Below are positions 35,072 through 64,000 of a stretch of 64,000 bases of DNA, piece by piece (position 1 is the first letter of the stretch; each line of letters starts with the position of its first letter). The stretch is taken from contig NZ_CP076023.1 in assembly GCF_018623035.1 (NCBI RefSeq), positions 1,240,001 to 1,304,000 of the forward strand, written 5' to 3'. The notes under the pieces are model-generated. The model was not told where the DNA came from and made no database searches. It saw nothing but the letters and a program-made list of their open reading frames with translations. A program made the position numbers and the translations under genes. The stretch comes from Cellulomonas dongxiuzhuiae (GTDB taxonomy: Bacteria > Actinomycetota > Actinomycetes > Actinomycetales > Cellulomonadaceae).

Positions 35072-35101
35072 GTGACCCGCTTCACGCTCATCATCGCGTA
35101 G
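35072..35101 (+). CDS. cimA leader peptide (9 aa, Thr/Leu/Ile codons)
   Basis: GTG 35072 opens MTRFTLIIA, ending TAG 35101. CACGAT (35060-35065) ends 6 nt before the GTG, so the peptide would start a leaderless transcript. The consecutive ATC ATC codons after CTC fit control by isoleucine (and leucine) charging of the citramalate pathway. A hairpin starts at the last base of the stop codon and a T-tailed terminator follows, so the same attenuation logic as at ilvB is expected. Confidence 0.8.
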   Translation: MTRFTLIIA

Positions 35102-35155
35102 CGCGTCGGCCGACCAGCCGACGCGCAGACCTCCCGTACCTCGGGGGGTCTTTTT
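35101..35155 (+). terminator. Attenuator structure upstream of cimA
   Basis: Two hairpins in series: GCGCGTCGGC (35101-35110) with GCCGACGCGC (35117-35126), a perfect 10-bp stem beginning at the leader stop codon, then GACCTCCC (35128-35135) with GGGGGGTC (35143-35150, one G-U) followed by TTTTT. The second is the terminator; the first may form or not depending on ribosome position. The antiterminator pairing is not evident by eye. Confidence 0.82.
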
Positions 35156-35287
35156 GTTGGTCCAGACGTCCGTGGGCACCACCCCCGCCCGCACGACACG
35201 TCGACGAGGCACCGGCACCACCCCCGCCGGACGCGCACCCCCTGCCGCCCCGCCGACGCACGCCCGCACCGCCCCGAGGAGCCCTCC

Positions 35288-36928
35288 GTGACACAGTCCA
35301 CGGCACCCGCGTCGACCACGTCGTCGCCGTTCCACGTCTACGACACCACGCTGCGTGACGGCGCCCAGCAGGAGGGCATCAACCTGTCGGTCGCCGACAA
35401 GCTGGCGATCGCGCCGATGCTCGACGAGCTGGGCGTGGGGTTCATCGAGGGCGGCTGGCCGGGCGCCGTGCCCAAGGACACGGAGTTCTTCCGGCGGGCG
35501 GCGAAGGAGCTGGACCTGCGCAACGCGGAGCTGGCCGCCTTCGGCGCCACGCGCAAGGTCGGGGTGCGTGCGGCCGACGACCCGCAGGTGCGTGCGCTCC
35601 TGGACTCCGAGGCGCCCGTCGTCACGCTCGTCGCCAAGTTCGACGTGCGGCACGTCGAGCGTGCGCTGCGCACGACCGCGGACGAAGGACTGGCGATGAT
35701 CGCGGACACCGTGACGCTCCTCCTGGGGGAGGGGCGGCGCGTGTTCGTCGACGCCGAGCACTTCTTCGACGGGTACCGGTACGACGCGGCCTTCTCGCGC
35801 AGCGCCGTGCTGACCGCGTTCGAGGCCGGTGCCGAGGTCGTCGCCCTGTGCGACACCAACGGCGGCATGCTGCCGGACTGGGTGCGGGAGATCGTGCTGG
35901 AGGTCCGCGCGGCCGCCGGCCCCGACGCGCTGCTGGGCATGCACGCCCACAACGACTCCGGGTGCGCGGTCGCCAACACCCTCGCCGCCGTCGACGCCGG
36001 CTGCATGCACGTGCAGGGCACGGTCAACGGGTACGGCGAGCGCACGGGTAACGCCGACCTCCTGTCGGTCGTCGCGAACCTCGAGCTCAAGCTCGGCCGG
36101 CAGGTGCTCGCGCGGCACCCGGACGCGCCGGGCGGGCTTCCCGAGCTGACCCGCATCGCGCACGCGATCAGCGAGCTGACGAACATCTCGCCGTTCGCGC
36201 GCCAGCCGTACGTCGGCGCGAGCGCCTTCGCCCACAAGGCGGGCCTGCACGCGTCGGCGATCAAGGTCGACCCCGACCTCTACCAGCACGCGGACCCCGA
36301 GCTCGTCGGCAACGACATGCGGATGCTCGTGTCCGACATGGCAGGGCGCGCCTCGATCGAGCTCAAGGGCCGTCAGCTCGGCATCGACCTCGCGGAGCAC
36401 CCGGACGTCCTGTCGCGCGTGATGCACCGCATCAAGGACGCCGAGGCCGGCGGCTACACCTACGAGGCGGCCGACGCGTCGTTCGAGCTCGTGCTCGTCG
36501 AGGAGCTCGAGGGTGCGCGGCCGGCGTACTTCAGGGTCGAGTCGTGGCGCGCGATCGTCGAGCGCAACGGCGGACGCGGCACGGCCGCGACGGCCGAGGC
36601 GACGGTCAAGCTGCACGCGGGCGGTGAGCGCATCGTCACCACCGGCGAGGGCAACGGACCCGTCAACGCGCTGGACCACGCGCTGCGGACCGCCCTGGGA
36701 CGCGTGTACCCCGAGCTCGCCGAGTTCGAGCTCATCGACTTCAAGGTGCGCATCCTCGACCAGATGCAGGGCACGGACGCGGTGACCCGGGTGCTCATCG
36801 AGAGCACCGACGGTCAGACGTCGTGGAGCACCGTCGGCGTGGGTCCCAACCTCATCGAGGCCTCGTGGGAGGCCCTCACCGACTCCGCCATCTGGGGCCT
36901 GCGCCACCACGGGGTCCCGCCGCGCTGA
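35288..36928 (+). CDS. cimA: Citramalate synthase
   Basis: 546 residues. GTG 35288 has GAGGAG 6 nt upstream. The HMGL-like TIM barrel opens FHVYDTTLRDGAQQEG and has the metal-binding MHAHNDSGCAVANT and the catalytic NGYGERTGNADL; a C-terminal LeuA-type regulatory domain (from about residue 405) follows, ending NLIEASWEALTDSAIWGL. The pattern matches citramalate synthases rather than isopropylmalate synthases: pyruvate plus acetyl-CoA to citramalate, a threonine-independent source of 2-ketobutyrate for isoleucine. The C-terminal domain probably binds isoleucine as inhibitor. The Ile-codon leader upstream adds transcriptional control. Confidence 0.94.
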   Translation: MTQSTAPASTTSSPFHVYDTTLRDGAQQEGINLSVADKLAIAPMLDELGVGFIEGGWPGAVPKDTEFFRRAAKELDLRNAELAAFGATRKVGVRAADDPQVRALLDSEAPVVTLVAKFDVRHVERALRTTADEGLAMIADTVTLLLGEGRRVFVDAEHFFDGYRYDAAFSRSAVLTAFEAGAEVVALCDTNGGMLPDWVREIVLEVRAAAGPDALLGMHAHNDSGCAVANTLAAVDAGCMHVQGTVNGYGERTGNADLLSVVANLELKLGRQVLARHPDAPGGLPELTRIAHAISELTNISPFARQPYVGASAFAHKAGLHASAIKVDPDLYQHADPELVGNDMRMLVSDMAGRASIELKGRQLGIDLAEHPDVLSRVMHRIKDAEAGGYTYEAADASFELVLVEELEGARPAYFRVESWRAIVERNGGRGTAATAEATVKLHAGGERIVTTGEGNGPVNALDHALRTALGRVYPELAEFELIDFKVRILDQMQGTDAVTRVLIESTDGQTSWSTVGVGPNLIEASWEALTDSAIWGLRHHGVPPR

Positions 36929-42298: not shown

Positions 42299-42898
42299 TC
42301 AGAGCGCGACGCCGACCAGTGCACCGACCCCGTACGTGACTGCCATCGCCAGCGAGCCGCCCAGCACGTTGCGCAGGACGGAGCGGCCGTGCGACGCACC
42401 CGTGAAGCGCGCCGACGCCCAGCCCGTCAGGACGAGCGCGACGAGGACCGCCGCGAACGTCGCCGGGACCCGCGCGGCCGTGGTCCACGGGGCCAGCACG
42501 ACGAGCAGCGGGATGAGCGCCCCCGCGGTGAACGCCAGCATGGACGCGAGCGCGGCCTGCCACGGGTTGGTGAAGTCCTGGTGGGCGTCGGTGATGGGCC
42601 GGCCGGACGCGGCGGCGACGCGCTCGGCGTCCCGCTGGCTGGAGACGGACACGTACTCGCCCGAGGCCATCGACAGCGCACCGGCGAGCAGCGCGGCACC
42701 GCCCGCCAGGGCGATGGTCGACGTCGACGCGGCGGCGCCCGCGACGCCCACGACCGTCGCGCCGACGGACACGATGCCGTCGTTGGCGCCGAGGACCCCG
42801 GCGCGCAGGCGGTTGAGACCTGCGTTCGACGCCGCGCGCCGCGGCGTGCGGCGGAGCAGCGCGCCGAACCCGACGACGCGGTCGCTGGTCGTGGTCAT
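42299..42898 (-). CDS. VIT1/CCC1-family metal transporter
   Basis: 199 residues. ATG 42898 is preceded by TACCGT with a 5-nt gap. It has the CCC1-type opening NRLRAGVLGANDGIVSVGA, then GEYVSVSSQRDAERVAA, a helix TNPWQAALASMLAFTAGALI and two C-terminal helices (SVLRNVLGGSLAMAVTYGVG). Five membrane helices are expected. Family members carry Fe or Mn; the ferritin-like extension found in some bacterial versions is absent. It lies 17 nt before the YbaK frame on the same strand, so the two may be co-transcribed. Confidence 0.9.
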   Translation of the reverse strand: MTTTSDRVVGFGALLRRTPRRAASNAGLNRLRAGVLGANDGIVSVGATVVGVAGAAASTSTIALAGGAALLAGALSMASGEYVSVSSQRDAERVAAASGRPITDAHQDFTNPWQAALASMLAFTAGALIPLLVVLAPWTTAARVPATFAAVLVALVLTGWASARFTGASHGRSVLRNVLGGSLAMAVTYGVGALVGVAL

Positions 42899-43018
42899 GG
42901 GCCACGGTAGGCCCGCGCGCGCAGTCCTGTCACCGCAGGAAAGGCTGGCCTGACCTGGGGCGATGCAGGCGTGCCTACCCTGACTCACACCCCGGCCGGC
43001 GCCCCCGCCGAGGTGACG

Positions 43019-60827: not shown

Positions 60828-61472
60828 GTGCGCGAGCTGCTGCGGTCCCTGCCCGCCGTGTCCGGCGACGCCCCGCCGTTCGACCAGGGCACGGCCTCCG
60901 ACGACCCCCTCGAGCTGTTCGCCGCGTGGTTCACCGCTGCGGTCGAGCTCGGCGTCCCCGAGCCGCACGCGGCGACGCTCGCGACCGCCGACGCCGACGG
61001 CCGGCCGTCGGCGCGCGTGCTCTTCCTCAAGGACGTCGGCCCCGAGGGCTTCGCGTTCGCGACCGACGCCCGCAGCGCGAAGGCGGCCGACCTGGCCGCG
61101 AACCCGCAGGCGGCGCTCGGTTTCTGGTGGCAGCAGCTGGTGCGGCAGGTGCGGGTCGCCGGGGCCGCCCGGTACCTCGGCGCGGAGGTCTCCGGGGTCG
61201 ACTACCTCGCGCGGTCGCCTGCGTCGCGCGCGGCCGCGGCGGGTGTCCGGCCGGGGGAGCCGCTGACGTCCGTCGACGACCTGCGGGCGGCCATGCGCGA
61301 CGCGCGCGGCCGCATCGACGCCGACCCCGGCTTCGTCCTGCCGACGTGGCAGGCGTGGCTCGTCGTCCCGCAGGTCGTCGAGTTCTGGCAGGGCAGCGCC
61401 GACCGTGCCCACGTCCGGCTGGTCTACCGCCGCACGGGCGACGGCTGGGACCACGCGCTGGTGTGGCCCTGA
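60828..61472 (+). CDS. pdxH: Pyridoxamine 5'-phosphate oxidase
   Basis: 214 residues. The opening RELLRSLPAVSGDAPPFDQG, EPHAATLATADADGRPSARV, FLKDVGPEGFAFATDARSAK, FWWQQLVRQVRVAG and the C-terminal VEFWQGSADRAHVRLVY plus ALVWP match PdxH throughout. It oxidises PNP and PMP to PLP with FMN. GTG 60828 is preferred (CAGGGT ends 7 nt before it); GTG 60819 in the same frame would overlap that hexamer. A small leader peptide gene follows, then an amino acid importer. Confidence 0.93.
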   Translation: MRELLRSLPAVSGDAPPFDQGTASDDPLELFAAWFTAAVELGVPEPHAATLATADADGRPSARVLFLKDVGPEGFAFATDARSAKAADLAANPQAALGFWWQQLVRQVRVAGAARYLGAEVSGVDYLARSPASRAAAAGVRPGEPLTSVDDLRAAMRDARGRIDADPGFVLPTWQAWLVVPQVVEFWQGSADRAHVRLVYRRTGDGWDHALVWP

Positions 61473-61480
61473 CGGGCACT

Positions 61481-61510
61481 GGAGGGCTCTGGAGGGCTCT
61501 GAAGGGCTCT
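61481..61510. repeat. Three tandem 10-bp repeats upstream of the cysteine leader
   Basis: GGAGGGCTCT, GGAGGGCTCT, GAAGGGCTCT in a row, 8 nt after the pdxH stop. They end 20 nt before the TAGGGT -10 of the leader peptide, so they cover the -35 region and above. One turn of DNA per unit would place three binding sites on one face. Confidence 0.75.
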
Positions 61511-61543
61511 GACCGGCACCGACGCGGTGCTAGGGTCGCCCGC

Positions 61544-61606
61544 ATGACCACGACCTCCCGTGACGCCCTCGTCGTCGCGTGTCGTGCTTGTCGCTGCTGT
61601 CGCTGA
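61544..61606 (+). CDS. Cysteine-rich leader peptide of the amino acid importer
   Basis: ATG 61544 opens a 20-residue frame MTTTSRDALVVACRACRCCR, ending TGA 61606. TAGGGT (61531-61536) ends 7 nt before the ATG, so the transcript would be leaderless. The last eight codons contain four Cys, three as TGT, a rare codon in this DNA, with Arg codons between. Leaderless upstream peptides ending in Cys runs control sulfur genes in mycobacteria by ribosome stalling, and short annotated leader peptides occur in front of sulfur transport genes in many actinobacteria. The importer that follows is cystine-type, which fits. 140 nt with several GC hairpins but no T-run separate it from the importer. Confidence 0.82.
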   Translation: MTTTSRDALVVACRACRCCR

Positions 61607-61746
61607 CGCAGCCCCCGTCGGACGTCTCCCGTCCGGCCCGCGACCTCCGTCGCCCCCGGTGGCACGAGCCACCCTCCCGTGGTGCTCTCTCCTCATGTCT
61701 CTGCGTGCCCCGTCGCGGCACGCGGGCCCGTCCCGAAAGGTCCCTC

Positions 61747-62529
61747 ATGTCCCGCACCCCCCGCCTCCTCGCCGCCGCACTCGTCGTCGCCGTCGGGACG
61801 CTGGCCGCGTGCTCGTCCGGCGACCCGGAGCCGAGCGGTGAGGGCACGTCGCAGGCCGGCGTGCTGCGCGTCGGCACCGAGGGCACGTACTCGCCGTTCA
61901 GCTTCCACGACGCGGACGGTGAGCTGACGGGCTACGACGTCGAGGTCATCACGGCCGTCGCGGACCAGCTGGGCCTGGAGGTCGAGTTCTCGGAGACCAC
62001 GTGGGACTCGATCTTCGCGGGGCTCGAGGCGGAGCGGTACGACGTCATCGCCAACCAGGTCACGGTCAACGACGAGCGCGCCGAGAAGTACGACCTCAGC
62101 GAGCCGTACACCGTGTCGACGGGCGTCGCGCTGGTCGCCGCCGACAACGACGCCGTGACGTCGATCGCCGACGTCTCGGGCCTGACCGCCGCGCAGTCCG
62201 CGACGTCGAACTGGTCGCAGGTCGCCACCGACGCGGGCGCGACGGTGGAGTCCGTCGAGGGCCTCACGCAGGCCGTCGCGCTGCTCAAGCAGGGGCGCAT
62301 CGACGTGACGTTCAACGACGACCTCGCGGTGCTCGACTACCTCCAGCAGTCCGGTGACACCTCGGTGAAGATCGCCTTCGAGACCGGCGACACCGTCGAG
62401 CAGGCGTTCGCGCTGCGCAAGGGGTCGGACCTCACGGCGCAGCTCGACGAGGCGCTCGCGGCGCTGCGCGCGGACGGCACGCTCGCCGAGATCTCCCAGA
62501 CGTGGTTCGGCCAGGACGTCTCGCAGTGA
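61747..62529 (+). CDS. Polar amino acid (probably cystine) ABC importer, binding lipoprotein
   Basis: 260 residues. ATG 61747 has CGAAAGG 6 nt upstream. A lipoprotein signal peptide ends at Cys22 (GTLAACSSG). The family 3 binding-protein fold is clear: VLRVGTEGTYSPFSFHDADG, LTGYDVEVITAVADQLGLEV, TTWDSIFAGLEAERYDVIAN and LVAADNDAVTSIADVSGLTA. EGTYSPFSFHD and WDSIFAGLEAERYDVIANQV resemble cystine-binding proteins (TcyA/FliY type) more than glutamine or histidine binders. Cys-codon leader control supports cystine, but substrate assays are needed to separate it from other polar amino acids. Confidence 0.88.
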   Translation: MSRTPRLLAAALVVAVGTLAACSSGDPEPSGEGTSQAGVLRVGTEGTYSPFSFHDADGELTGYDVEVITAVADQLGLEVEFSETTWDSIFAGLEAERYDVIANQVTVNDERAEKYDLSEPYTVSTGVALVAADNDAVTSIADVSGLTAAQSATSNWSQVATDAGATVESVEGLTQAVALLKQGRIDVTFNDDLAVLDYLQQSGDTSVKIAFETGDTVEQAFALRKGSDLTAQLDEALAALRADGTLAEISQTWFGQDVSQ

Positions 62530-62554: not shown

Positions 62555-63223
62555 GTGAGCGCGGACACGTGGGACCTGGTCGCGTCGTCGATCGGGCCGC
62601 TGCTGTCCGGGGCCGTGCGCGGCACCATCCCGCTGACGCTCATCTCGTTCGCCATCGGGCTGGTGCTCGCGCTGGTCGTCGCCCTCGCCCGGCTCTCGCG
62701 CCGGCGCGTGGTGTCGGCGCTGGCGCGGGTCTACATCTCGCTGATCCGCGGGACGCCGCTGCTCGTGCAGCTCTTCATCATCTTCTACGCGCTGCCGTCG
62801 TTCGGGCTGGTCATCGACCCGTTCCCGTCGGCGGTCGTCGCGTTCTCGCTGAACGTCGGCGGGTACGCGGCCGAGACGATCCGCGCCGCGATCCTGTCGG
62901 TGCCCAAGGGCCAGTGGGAGGCGGCCGCGACCATCGGGCTGAACCACACGCTGACGCTGCGGCGGGTCGTGCTGCCGCAGGCCGTGCGCGTCGCGGTGCC
63001 GCCGCTGTCGAACACCTTCATCTCGCTGGTCAAGGACACGTCGCTGGCGTCGACGATCATGGTCACCGAGCTGCTGCGCAAGGCGCAGGAGATCGCGGCG
63101 CCGACGTACGAGTTCATGACCCTGTACTCGCTGGCCGCGGTCATCTACTGGCTCATCTGCCTGGTGCTGTCGACGCTCCAGTCGCGGCTCGAGCGCCGGC
63201 TCGACCGGTTCGTGGCGCACTGA
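62555..63223 (+). CDS. Polar amino acid (probably cystine) ABC importer, permease
   Basis: 222 residues. GTG 62555 follows GAGGAGG by 5 nt. Five hydrophobic helices; ISLIRGTPLLVQLFIIFYAL is the signature of the His/Glu/Gln/Arg permease subfamily, and AAILSVPKGQWEAAATIGLN with VVLPQAVRVAVPPL is the EAA region that meets the ATPase. LVKDTSLASTIMVTELLRKA is the usual C-terminal segment. It probably forms a homodimeric channel with the adjacent ATPase. Confidence 0.93.
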   Translation: MSADTWDLVASSIGPLLSGAVRGTIPLTLISFAIGLVLALVVALARLSRRRVVSALARVYISLIRGTPLLVQLFIIFYALPSFGLVIDPFPSAVVAFSLNVGGYAAETIRAAILSVPKGQWEAAATIGLNHTLTLRRVVLPQAVRVAVPPLSNTFISLVKDTSLASTIMVTELLRKAQEIAAPTYEFMTLYSLAAVIYWLICLVLSTLQSRLERRLDRFVAH

Positions 63224-63236
63224 CGTGGGAGACGTG

Positions 63237-64000
63237 ATGACGACGAGCGACGCGACGACCCCGCCGGATGCCCGCCTCCTGGTCGAGGTCCGCGATCTGC
63301 ACAAGTCCTTCGGGGACCTGCACGTGTTGCGCGGCATCGACCTGAGCGTCGACCGCGGCAGCGTCACGGTGCTGATCGGCCCGTCCGGGTCCGGCAAGAC
63401 GACGCTGCTGCGCTGCCTCAACTCGCTCGAGGTCCCGGAGGCGGGCACCGTGCGCGTCGACGACGTCGAGCTCGACCTCGCGCGTCGCCCGACGGCGAGC
63501 GAGCTGCGCCGCCTGCGTGCGACCTCAGGCATGGTCTTCCAGTCCCACCAGCTCTTCCCGCACCGCACCGCGCTGCAGAACGTCACCGAGGGTCCGCTGT
63601 ACGCGCAGCGCCGGCCCGCCGCCGAGGTGAGGACCGAGGCGACGGCGCTGCTGGCCAAGGTCGGGCTGGCCGACAAGGCCGCCGCCTACCCGCACGAGCT
63701 GTCGGGCGGTCAGCAGCAGCGGGTGGGCATCGCGCGTGCGCTCGCGCTGCGGCCCCGGCTGCTGCTGTTCGACGAGCCCACGTCGGCGCTCGACCCCGAG
63801 ACGGTGGGGGAGGTGCTCGCGGTCATGCGGGACCTGGCCGCCGAGGGCTGGACGATGGTCGTCGTGACGCACGAGATCCGGTTCGCGCGGCAGGTGGCCG
63901 ACCACGTCGTGTTCATGGACGACGGGCACGTCGTCGAGGAAGGGCGCCCCGACGACGTGCTGGGTGCCCCGCGGCACGAGCGGACGCGCCGCTTCCTGCA
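63237..64000 (+). CDS. Polar amino acid ABC importer, ATP-binding protein (3' end beyond window)
   Basis: At least 254 residues, open at the right edge. ATG 63237, directly preceded by an in-frame GTG (63234). Walker A is LIGPSGSGKTTLLRCLN (about residue 50), the Q-loop MVFQSHQLFPHRTALQNV, the signature HELSGGQQQRVGIARAL, Walker B LLLFDEPTSALDPE and the switch His in VVVTHEIRFARQVADH. It is of the GlnQ/HisP/TcyC type and energises the preceding permease. Only the last few residues are expected to be missing, since the visible end DVLGAPRHERTRRFL is close to the normal C-terminus. Confidence 0.94.
   Translation, partial: MTTSDATTPPDARLLVEVRDLHKSFGDLHVLRGIDLSVDRGSVTVLIGPSGSGKTTLLRCLNSLEVPEAGTVRVDDVELDLARRPTASELRRLRATSGMVFQSHQLFPHRTALQNVTEGPLYAQRRPAAEVRTEATALLAKVGLADKAAAYPHELSGGQQQRVGIARALALRPRLLLFDEPTSALDPETVGEVLAVMRDLAAEGWTMVVVTHEIRFARQVADHVVFMDDGHVVEEGRPDDVLGAPRHERTRRFL

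Follow-up and report, generated by a model that had tools for sequence, protein, structure and literature searches.

A short, cysteine-rich open reading frame, predicted to be leaderless, precedes the genes of a cystine-type ABC importer in the window analysed here (the whole 64-kb stretch of Cellulomonas DNA, to which coordinates refer unless stated otherwise) and very probably serves as a cysteine-responsive leader-peptide attenuator of some kind. That this attenuator has a Rho-like output is a reading that we hold with slightly better than even confidence. The frame (MTTTSRDALVVACRACRCCR*; 61544-61606, forward strand) comprises 20 codons and a TGA stop, is kept in ten of ten close orthologs and starts 7 nt downstream of a predicted -10 box, TAGGGT (61531-61536, forward strand). 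Its Cys codons cluster at 61580-61600 of the same strand (TGT at 61580, TGT at 61589, TGC at 61595 and TGT at 61598) and give the peptide the C-terminus CRACRCCR, in which the final Cys stands one codon ahead of the stop. The 140 nt between the leader TGA and the ATG of the solute-binding gene (61747) hold a C-rich, G-poor spacer (61607-61734, forward strand), a candidate Rho-loading region that is predicted to form local GC hairpins and lacks a T-run, and the importer Shine-Dalgarno (SD) sequence GAAAGG (61735-61740, forward strand), which reads GAAAGG in all ten close orthologs. The box, its 7-nt distance from a 20-codon frame, the four clustered Cys codons and the 140-nt gap are all present as described in a first-pass annotation of this DNA.

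The leader is not a chance frame: none of 5000 dinucleotide shuffles of positions 61400-61746 produced a short ORF that both had three or more Cys among its final 12 codons and followed a TANNNT box by 5-9 nt, and the leader is the sole ORF on either strand of the 64-kb window to combine such a Cys cluster with such a box. When the box was not required, 98 of the same 5000 shuffles gave at least three Cys in the last 12 codons and seven gave at least four. Pattern searches of the source genome (chromosome of 3.98 Mb) returned 48 sites for TGYCGNNNNTGYCGNTG (36 for the reversed pattern) and 31 for TGYTGYCGNTGA (11 for the reversed pattern); among the 30 of 48 and 30 of 31 sites fetched, representing 321,740 nt with both strands counted and some overlap between loci, a Cys-rich frame behind the promoter box was found at the importer locus only. 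The pattern TGYTGYTGY was rejected for leader searches, its 652 sites (1892 when reversed) probably reflecting CTG repeats in another frame. Codon choice in the leader is also unusual: TGT makes up 31 of the 38 Cys codons in the ten close leaders versus 5 of 125 in the genes of the window, a background taken from rough calls of 41 genes that agrees with the earlier remark on the rarity of TGT in this neighbourhood.

Some match to the solute-binding protein occurs in 78 of the 81 genomes of the genus and a match at 52% identity or more in 24, the other 57 being without an importer ortholog at that level; among the named relatives scanned, Cellulomonas avistercoris comes nearest, with a binding protein that is 97% identical. 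Thirty genus loci were fetched, one for each of the 24 orthologs (L001-L024) and six for distant paralogs of 30-33% identity (L025-L030). Candidate leaders were frames of up to 70 codons with at least two Cys in the last 14, whether or not a promoter was present, and they were counted when they held at least three Cys. With L010 excluded, its sequence beginning at the gene, a Cys-rich leader was found in 19 of the 23 orthologs having upstream sequence. A frame resembling the leader, with two Cys as read by eye, lies at L014 and was left out of the count; L015 and L020 have no leader frame upstream of the importer ortholog; and L021 was scored as lacking a leader, its two frames that pass the filter being judged unrelated by eye (one enters the gene and the other is without the terminal Cys cluster). 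None of the six distant paralogs has a leader. Within the ten closest loci (L001-L009 and L011), which are not independent in that the leaders of L003 and L004 are identical, the start is fixed, leader length varies from 57 to 69 nt by multiples of three throughout, and all ten leaders end in TGT CGC TGA, the last Cys again one codon ahead of the stop; the spacers from stop to ATG measure 140-170 nt and follow no frame rule. Non-Cys positions vary freely among these ten leaders, which fits a leader peptide because only the control codons would matter.

At the family level (121 genomes), a Cys-rich leader was found at six of 27 newly fetched loci, in other spellings such as CCxxCC, and was not found at the remaining 21. 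Nine of the 80 named loci, which are the best 80 from 559 relatives, have a leader with a -10 box: five in Cellulomonas (the same genomes as L002, L003, L005, L009 and L011, and not independent of them), one in Propionicicella superfundia, two on contigs of one Actinomycetota MAG and one in an Actinomyces MAG. The leaders of Propionicicella and the Actinomycetota MAG (L121, L125 and L129) display Cys-x-Cys patterns with few Arg, e.g. MCPCCVVTRACI. No leader was found at the other 71 of these 80 loci, three of which have less than 240 nt of upstream sequence, and the Nocardia and Rhodococcus loci among them have none. Because no leader was found at most of the loci fetched at the family level and in the named set, importers of this kind also work without such a leader ahead of them. 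The comparison among related genera that had been proposed as a check on the leader shows the frame to be kept before most Cellulomonas orthologs and Cys to be the common element across genera. Leaders from other genera share the Cys cluster and mostly lack the Cys-Arg alternation (L126 being an exception). Sensing of arginine, which alternates with Cys in Cellulomonas, was ruled out on the ground that most leaders of other genera have their Cys without the Arg pattern.

The -10 box reads TAGGGT in nine of the ten close orthologs and TAGCCT in L011, and it stands 7 nt from the ATG in the close orthologs, but 6 nt in L006. A sigma-70 consensus scan gave no promoter at the leader locus and no -35 match, so that the promoter call leans on the -10 box alone. 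This box is retained 6-7 nt upstream in ten close orthologs; from it, the leader transcript likely starts at or adjoining the ATG and is predicted to be leaderless. An Rfam scan of positions 61300-61900 returned no family up to E = 1.

The three importer genes lie on the forward strand and encode the solute-binding protein (61747-62529; best NCBIfam model PRK11260, 187.1 bits, cut-off 312), the permease (62555-63223; PRK15100, a cystine permease, 265.8 bits, cut-off 300) and the ATP-binding protein (63225-64000, running off the window, with an alternative ATG start possible at 63237; PRK11264, TcyN, 319 bits, cut-off 406). For all three proteins the top NCBIfam model is one of cystine transport, with every score under its curated cut-off. 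Among solved structures, the binding protein is most closely related to 2YLN (3e-62 as a single protein, 7.6e-79 as a profile), with the next structure at 6e-41 and 2.6e-54, respectively; 2YLN is described as the gonococcal L-cystine receptor NGO0230 (PMC7170509). The assignment of the importer to cystine, first made from the leader, finds backing in this kinship, and cystine is the likely substrate on the two grounds taken separately, the leader providing a second line of support for a cystine-specific importer. The resemblance to NGO0230 and to E. coli FliY-YecSC, as these are presented in PMC7170509, lies in the binding protein having 2YLN as its nearest solved structure; the Cellulomonas protein differs in being actinobacterial, in having a ligand suggested by kinship and in not reaching the NCBIfam cystine cut-offs. 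Each part of the attenuator interpretation that sequence can test holds (a kept frame, Cys as the common element, no terminator and cystine-receptor kinship), and the interpretation as a whole is supported.

Cys-rich leaders also stand before two other loci of the same genome, where they were located from the genes and not from the pattern searches. The cysK gene (locus L198; G000:C1:1502890-1503783, reverse strand), identified by TIGR01139 (455.5 bits, cut-off 350.95), has upstream of it the leader MRVPTAAVAPVVRACAACTCCRCR*, which ends 183 nt ahead of the cysK ATG and carries an SD-like AGGAGAG; it is probably SD-led and not leaderless. Such a leader was found at 26 of 30 genus cysK loci fetched after a search of 81 genomes, each ending in CCRC followed by R, L or P, and TGT accounts for 71 of the 102 Cys codons in these 26 leaders; two of the four misses have just 207 and 276 nt of upstream sequence, and two have full upstream sequence. 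The second leader, MNLPGTCCLCRCCRAAAVPCACCPRNR* (positions 2875-2958 of locus L235, reverse strand), has a GTG start and two Cys clusters, the last Cys lying several codons from the stop, and ends 103 nt ahead of the gene for a NIR_SIR-family reductase, which is followed by two PAPS_reduct-family genes. Nitrite reductase ranks first, below its cut-off, among the NCBIfam models for this reductase, and the locus is probably an assimilatory sulfite-reductase operon. Leaderless starts are not general among these leaders, since a TANNNT box at 5-9 nt is absent from both the cysK and the reductase leader and the former has an SD-like site. The presence of Cys leaders before cysK and the probable sulfite-reductase operon agrees with cysteine sensing.

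In the mechanism that we propose, transcription likely begins at or adjoining the leader ATG and the ribosome would read the leader at once. When charged Cys-tRNA is plentiful, the ribosome would finish and depart, exposing the 140-nt untranslated C-rich spacer, on which Rho is predicted to load and to end transcription short of the importer. Under a shortage of Cys-tRNA, the ribosome would stall on the Cys codons, the last of them a codon ahead of the stop, and would either shield the start of the spacer or hold the RNA and polymerase in a read-through state, allowing the importer to be made. TGT is read slowly through G-U wobble, and the rare TGT codons probably raise the sensitivity of the sensor. 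We infer the start site, the stalling, the Rho step and the direction of control alike. More tentatively, with confidence somewhat short of even, the importer, cysK and sulfite-reductase operons may form a ribosome-read cysteine regulon of Cellulomonas, each opening with a leader of this type; the leaders of the importer and of cysK would be dominated by slow TGT codons, with the last Cys a single codon ahead of the stop and a C-rich spacer prone to Rho behind it, and Cys-tRNA charging would gate transcription termination, not SD masking.

Sites of Rho loading are usually marked by more C than G, and rho is encoded in the genome. The C-over-G skew of the spacers ranges from 0.26 to 0.38 across the ten importer loci and amounts to 0.27 for cysK, 0.30 for the reductase and 0.14-0.36 for 25 further cysK loci, whereas 113 control regions upstream of other genes in this genome, a set that leaves out the cysK and reductase spacers, have a mean of 0.002 (sd 0.092) and include one that reaches at least 0.26. 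This lone high control (skew 0.28) is the leader region of cimA, which has an intrinsic terminator; the skew is thus not specific to Rho and may mark leader regions generally, and the weight on the Rho-type reading was lowered, and that on its rivals raised slightly, on this account. A smaller control set of 20 regions, one of which belongs to the importer's own solute-binding gene with too early a start, held two high values, 0.24 and 0.28 (cimA). Within the window, the 100-nt region upstream of the gene at 42299-42988 (reverse strand) has a skew of 0.24, and the called start of this gene, which has no NCBIfam match, may be too early. The importer leader is followed by the C-rich, G-poor untranslated spacer expected of a tnaC-like Rho attenuator, a trait that cimA shows to be non-specific. 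In M. tuberculosis, Rho depletion is reported not to have relieved the effect of blocked translation on elongation (PMC10937400), which counts against the Rho reading. A stalled ribosome, moreover, covers few bases past the stop, and the shielding of a 140-nt spacer is left without explanation.

A rather unlikely alternative, though the one that survives best, retains the same Cys sensor and places the output in translation, the spacer masking the importer SD and a stalled ribosome freeing it, as has been described for the polycysteine uORFs of M. smegmatis. Unmasking of the ribosome-binding site is reportedly what Canestrari proposed in 2020. Citing papers speak of translation attenuation for the M. 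smegmatis cysteine genes, with SD unmasking as the general form (PMC13236596, PMC9031893), and the Cellulomonas leader region (from 61545) is structured, with a folding z of -3.3 (-0.03 to -2.92 for the spacers of the ten orthologs). The SD itself, however, has an unpaired probability of 0.36-0.66 in the ten orthologs without a ribosome and, in a common window, of 0.41-0.64 at the ten importer loci, compared with an average of 0.47 over 19 control genes. When a ribosome is modelled on the Cys codons, the importer value shifts by -0.10 to +0.12 at the best position and by down to -0.21 at the worst, and RNAalifold detected no conserved structure pairing spacer with SD among the ten close orthologs. 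The cysK SD is unpaired at 0.58 on average, and ribosome placement yields a largest gain of 0.31 and a mean best gain of 0.05 (23 of the 26 leader-bearing loci, the script having found no cysK start at the other three). Thermodynamic folding of GC-rich RNA is weak evidence. A Rho-type switch is favoured because the spacers are C-rich and G-poor and because folding predicts no masking of the SD.

Attenuation of transcription by a hairpin without a T-run, which would terminate or strongly pause the polymerase unless a stalled ribosome shifted the RNA into an alternative fold, is improbable. Hairpins do follow the leader stop in the predicted folds of all ten spacers, as is unsurprising in such GC-rich RNA, and their registers differ among the ten, for which we claim no covariation. 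Against this reading, none of the ten closest spacers has a run of four T, and a search for terminator-like sites found none in the importer leader and spacer; the hairpin followed by a T-run of a classical attenuator is absent from this leader, as was anticipated by the suggestion that the mechanism dispenses with an intrinsic terminator, and the cimA leader in the same window shows that a T-run terminator does occur in a leader of this genome. Very improbable is the view that the leader frame is untranslated, its Cys content arising by chance from a repeated TGTCGC string or belonging to a conserved DNA or RNA element: equal-length leader pairs do differ nonsynonymously at 21 and synonymously at 10 codons, but the shuffles, the fixed start and stop and the length changes in threes described above argue against it, other genera encode their Cys clusters by different nucleotide strings, and free non-Cys positions are expected of a leader peptide.

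The importer leader belongs to an already known broad kind, the Cys leader-peptide attenuators, in that a short ORF with clustered Cys near its stop precedes a cysteine-supply gene (the target being assigned by kinship) and its frame is conserved in relatives (19 of 23, with lengths in threes). At E. coli tnaC, a Rho-dependent leader attenuator, the ribosome arrests on its own peptide plus tryptophan and is held near the leader stop. The Cellulomonas leader is akin to tnaC (which is named in PMC1262725) in a ribosome held near the leader stop and a Rho-prone spacer, both of them predictions here, and differs from it in that charged-tRNA starvation would replace arrest by peptide and tryptophan. 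Cysteine-responsive leaderless polycysteine ORFs are reported from M. smegmatis (Canestrari et al. 2020, doi 10.1111/mmi.14498, as related in PMC9031893, PMC9094748 and PMC13236596). As portrayed in these citing papers, the mycobacterial sORFs likewise are short predicted leaderless ORFs with clustered Cys and a cysteine-related target, found at several operons per genome, whereas in Cellulomonas Cys alternates with Arg, is mostly encoded by TGT and comes last one codon before the stop, the leader precedes a cystine-type importer, folding predicts no masking of the SD and the cysK leader looks SD-led. Cys leader peptides were predicted as early as 2005 before cys operons of Mycobacterium and P. 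acnes and before cbs of B. longum (Seliverstov et al. 2005, PMC1262725); in that account they too have Cys runs near the stop and no conserved terminator hairpin, and Rho was proposed by analogy with tna, to which the Cellulomonas case adds the genus, the importer target, a measured C-over-G skew and the TGT bias.

A literature search covering titles and abstract openings, with few subscription papers, found no paper on a Cys leader from Cellulomonas or upstream of a cystine importer; as far as the searches show, the novel points are the occurrence in this genus, the control of a cystine-type importer, the preference for TGT, the invariant Cys-Arg-stop ending and the composition of the spacer. 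The range of cysteine-sensing leaders would then extend past mycobacteria, taking in a cystine-type importer and, within a single genome, also synthesis and probably sulfite-reduction operons. If the output is of the Rho type, the same sensor would be wired differently from the mycobacterial translational model, and the proposal of Rho made in 2005 for the cys leaders of actinobacteria, as worded in PMC1262725, would be directly testable.

The window also holds an attenuator-like leader, at 35072-35156, ahead of the citramalate synthase gene cimA (35288-36928). It encodes VTRFTLIIA* (35072-35101), followed by a GC hairpin and TTTTT (35127-35156), and would sense the supply of Ile and Leu; its layout suggests that this genome also uses intrinsic-terminator attenuation.
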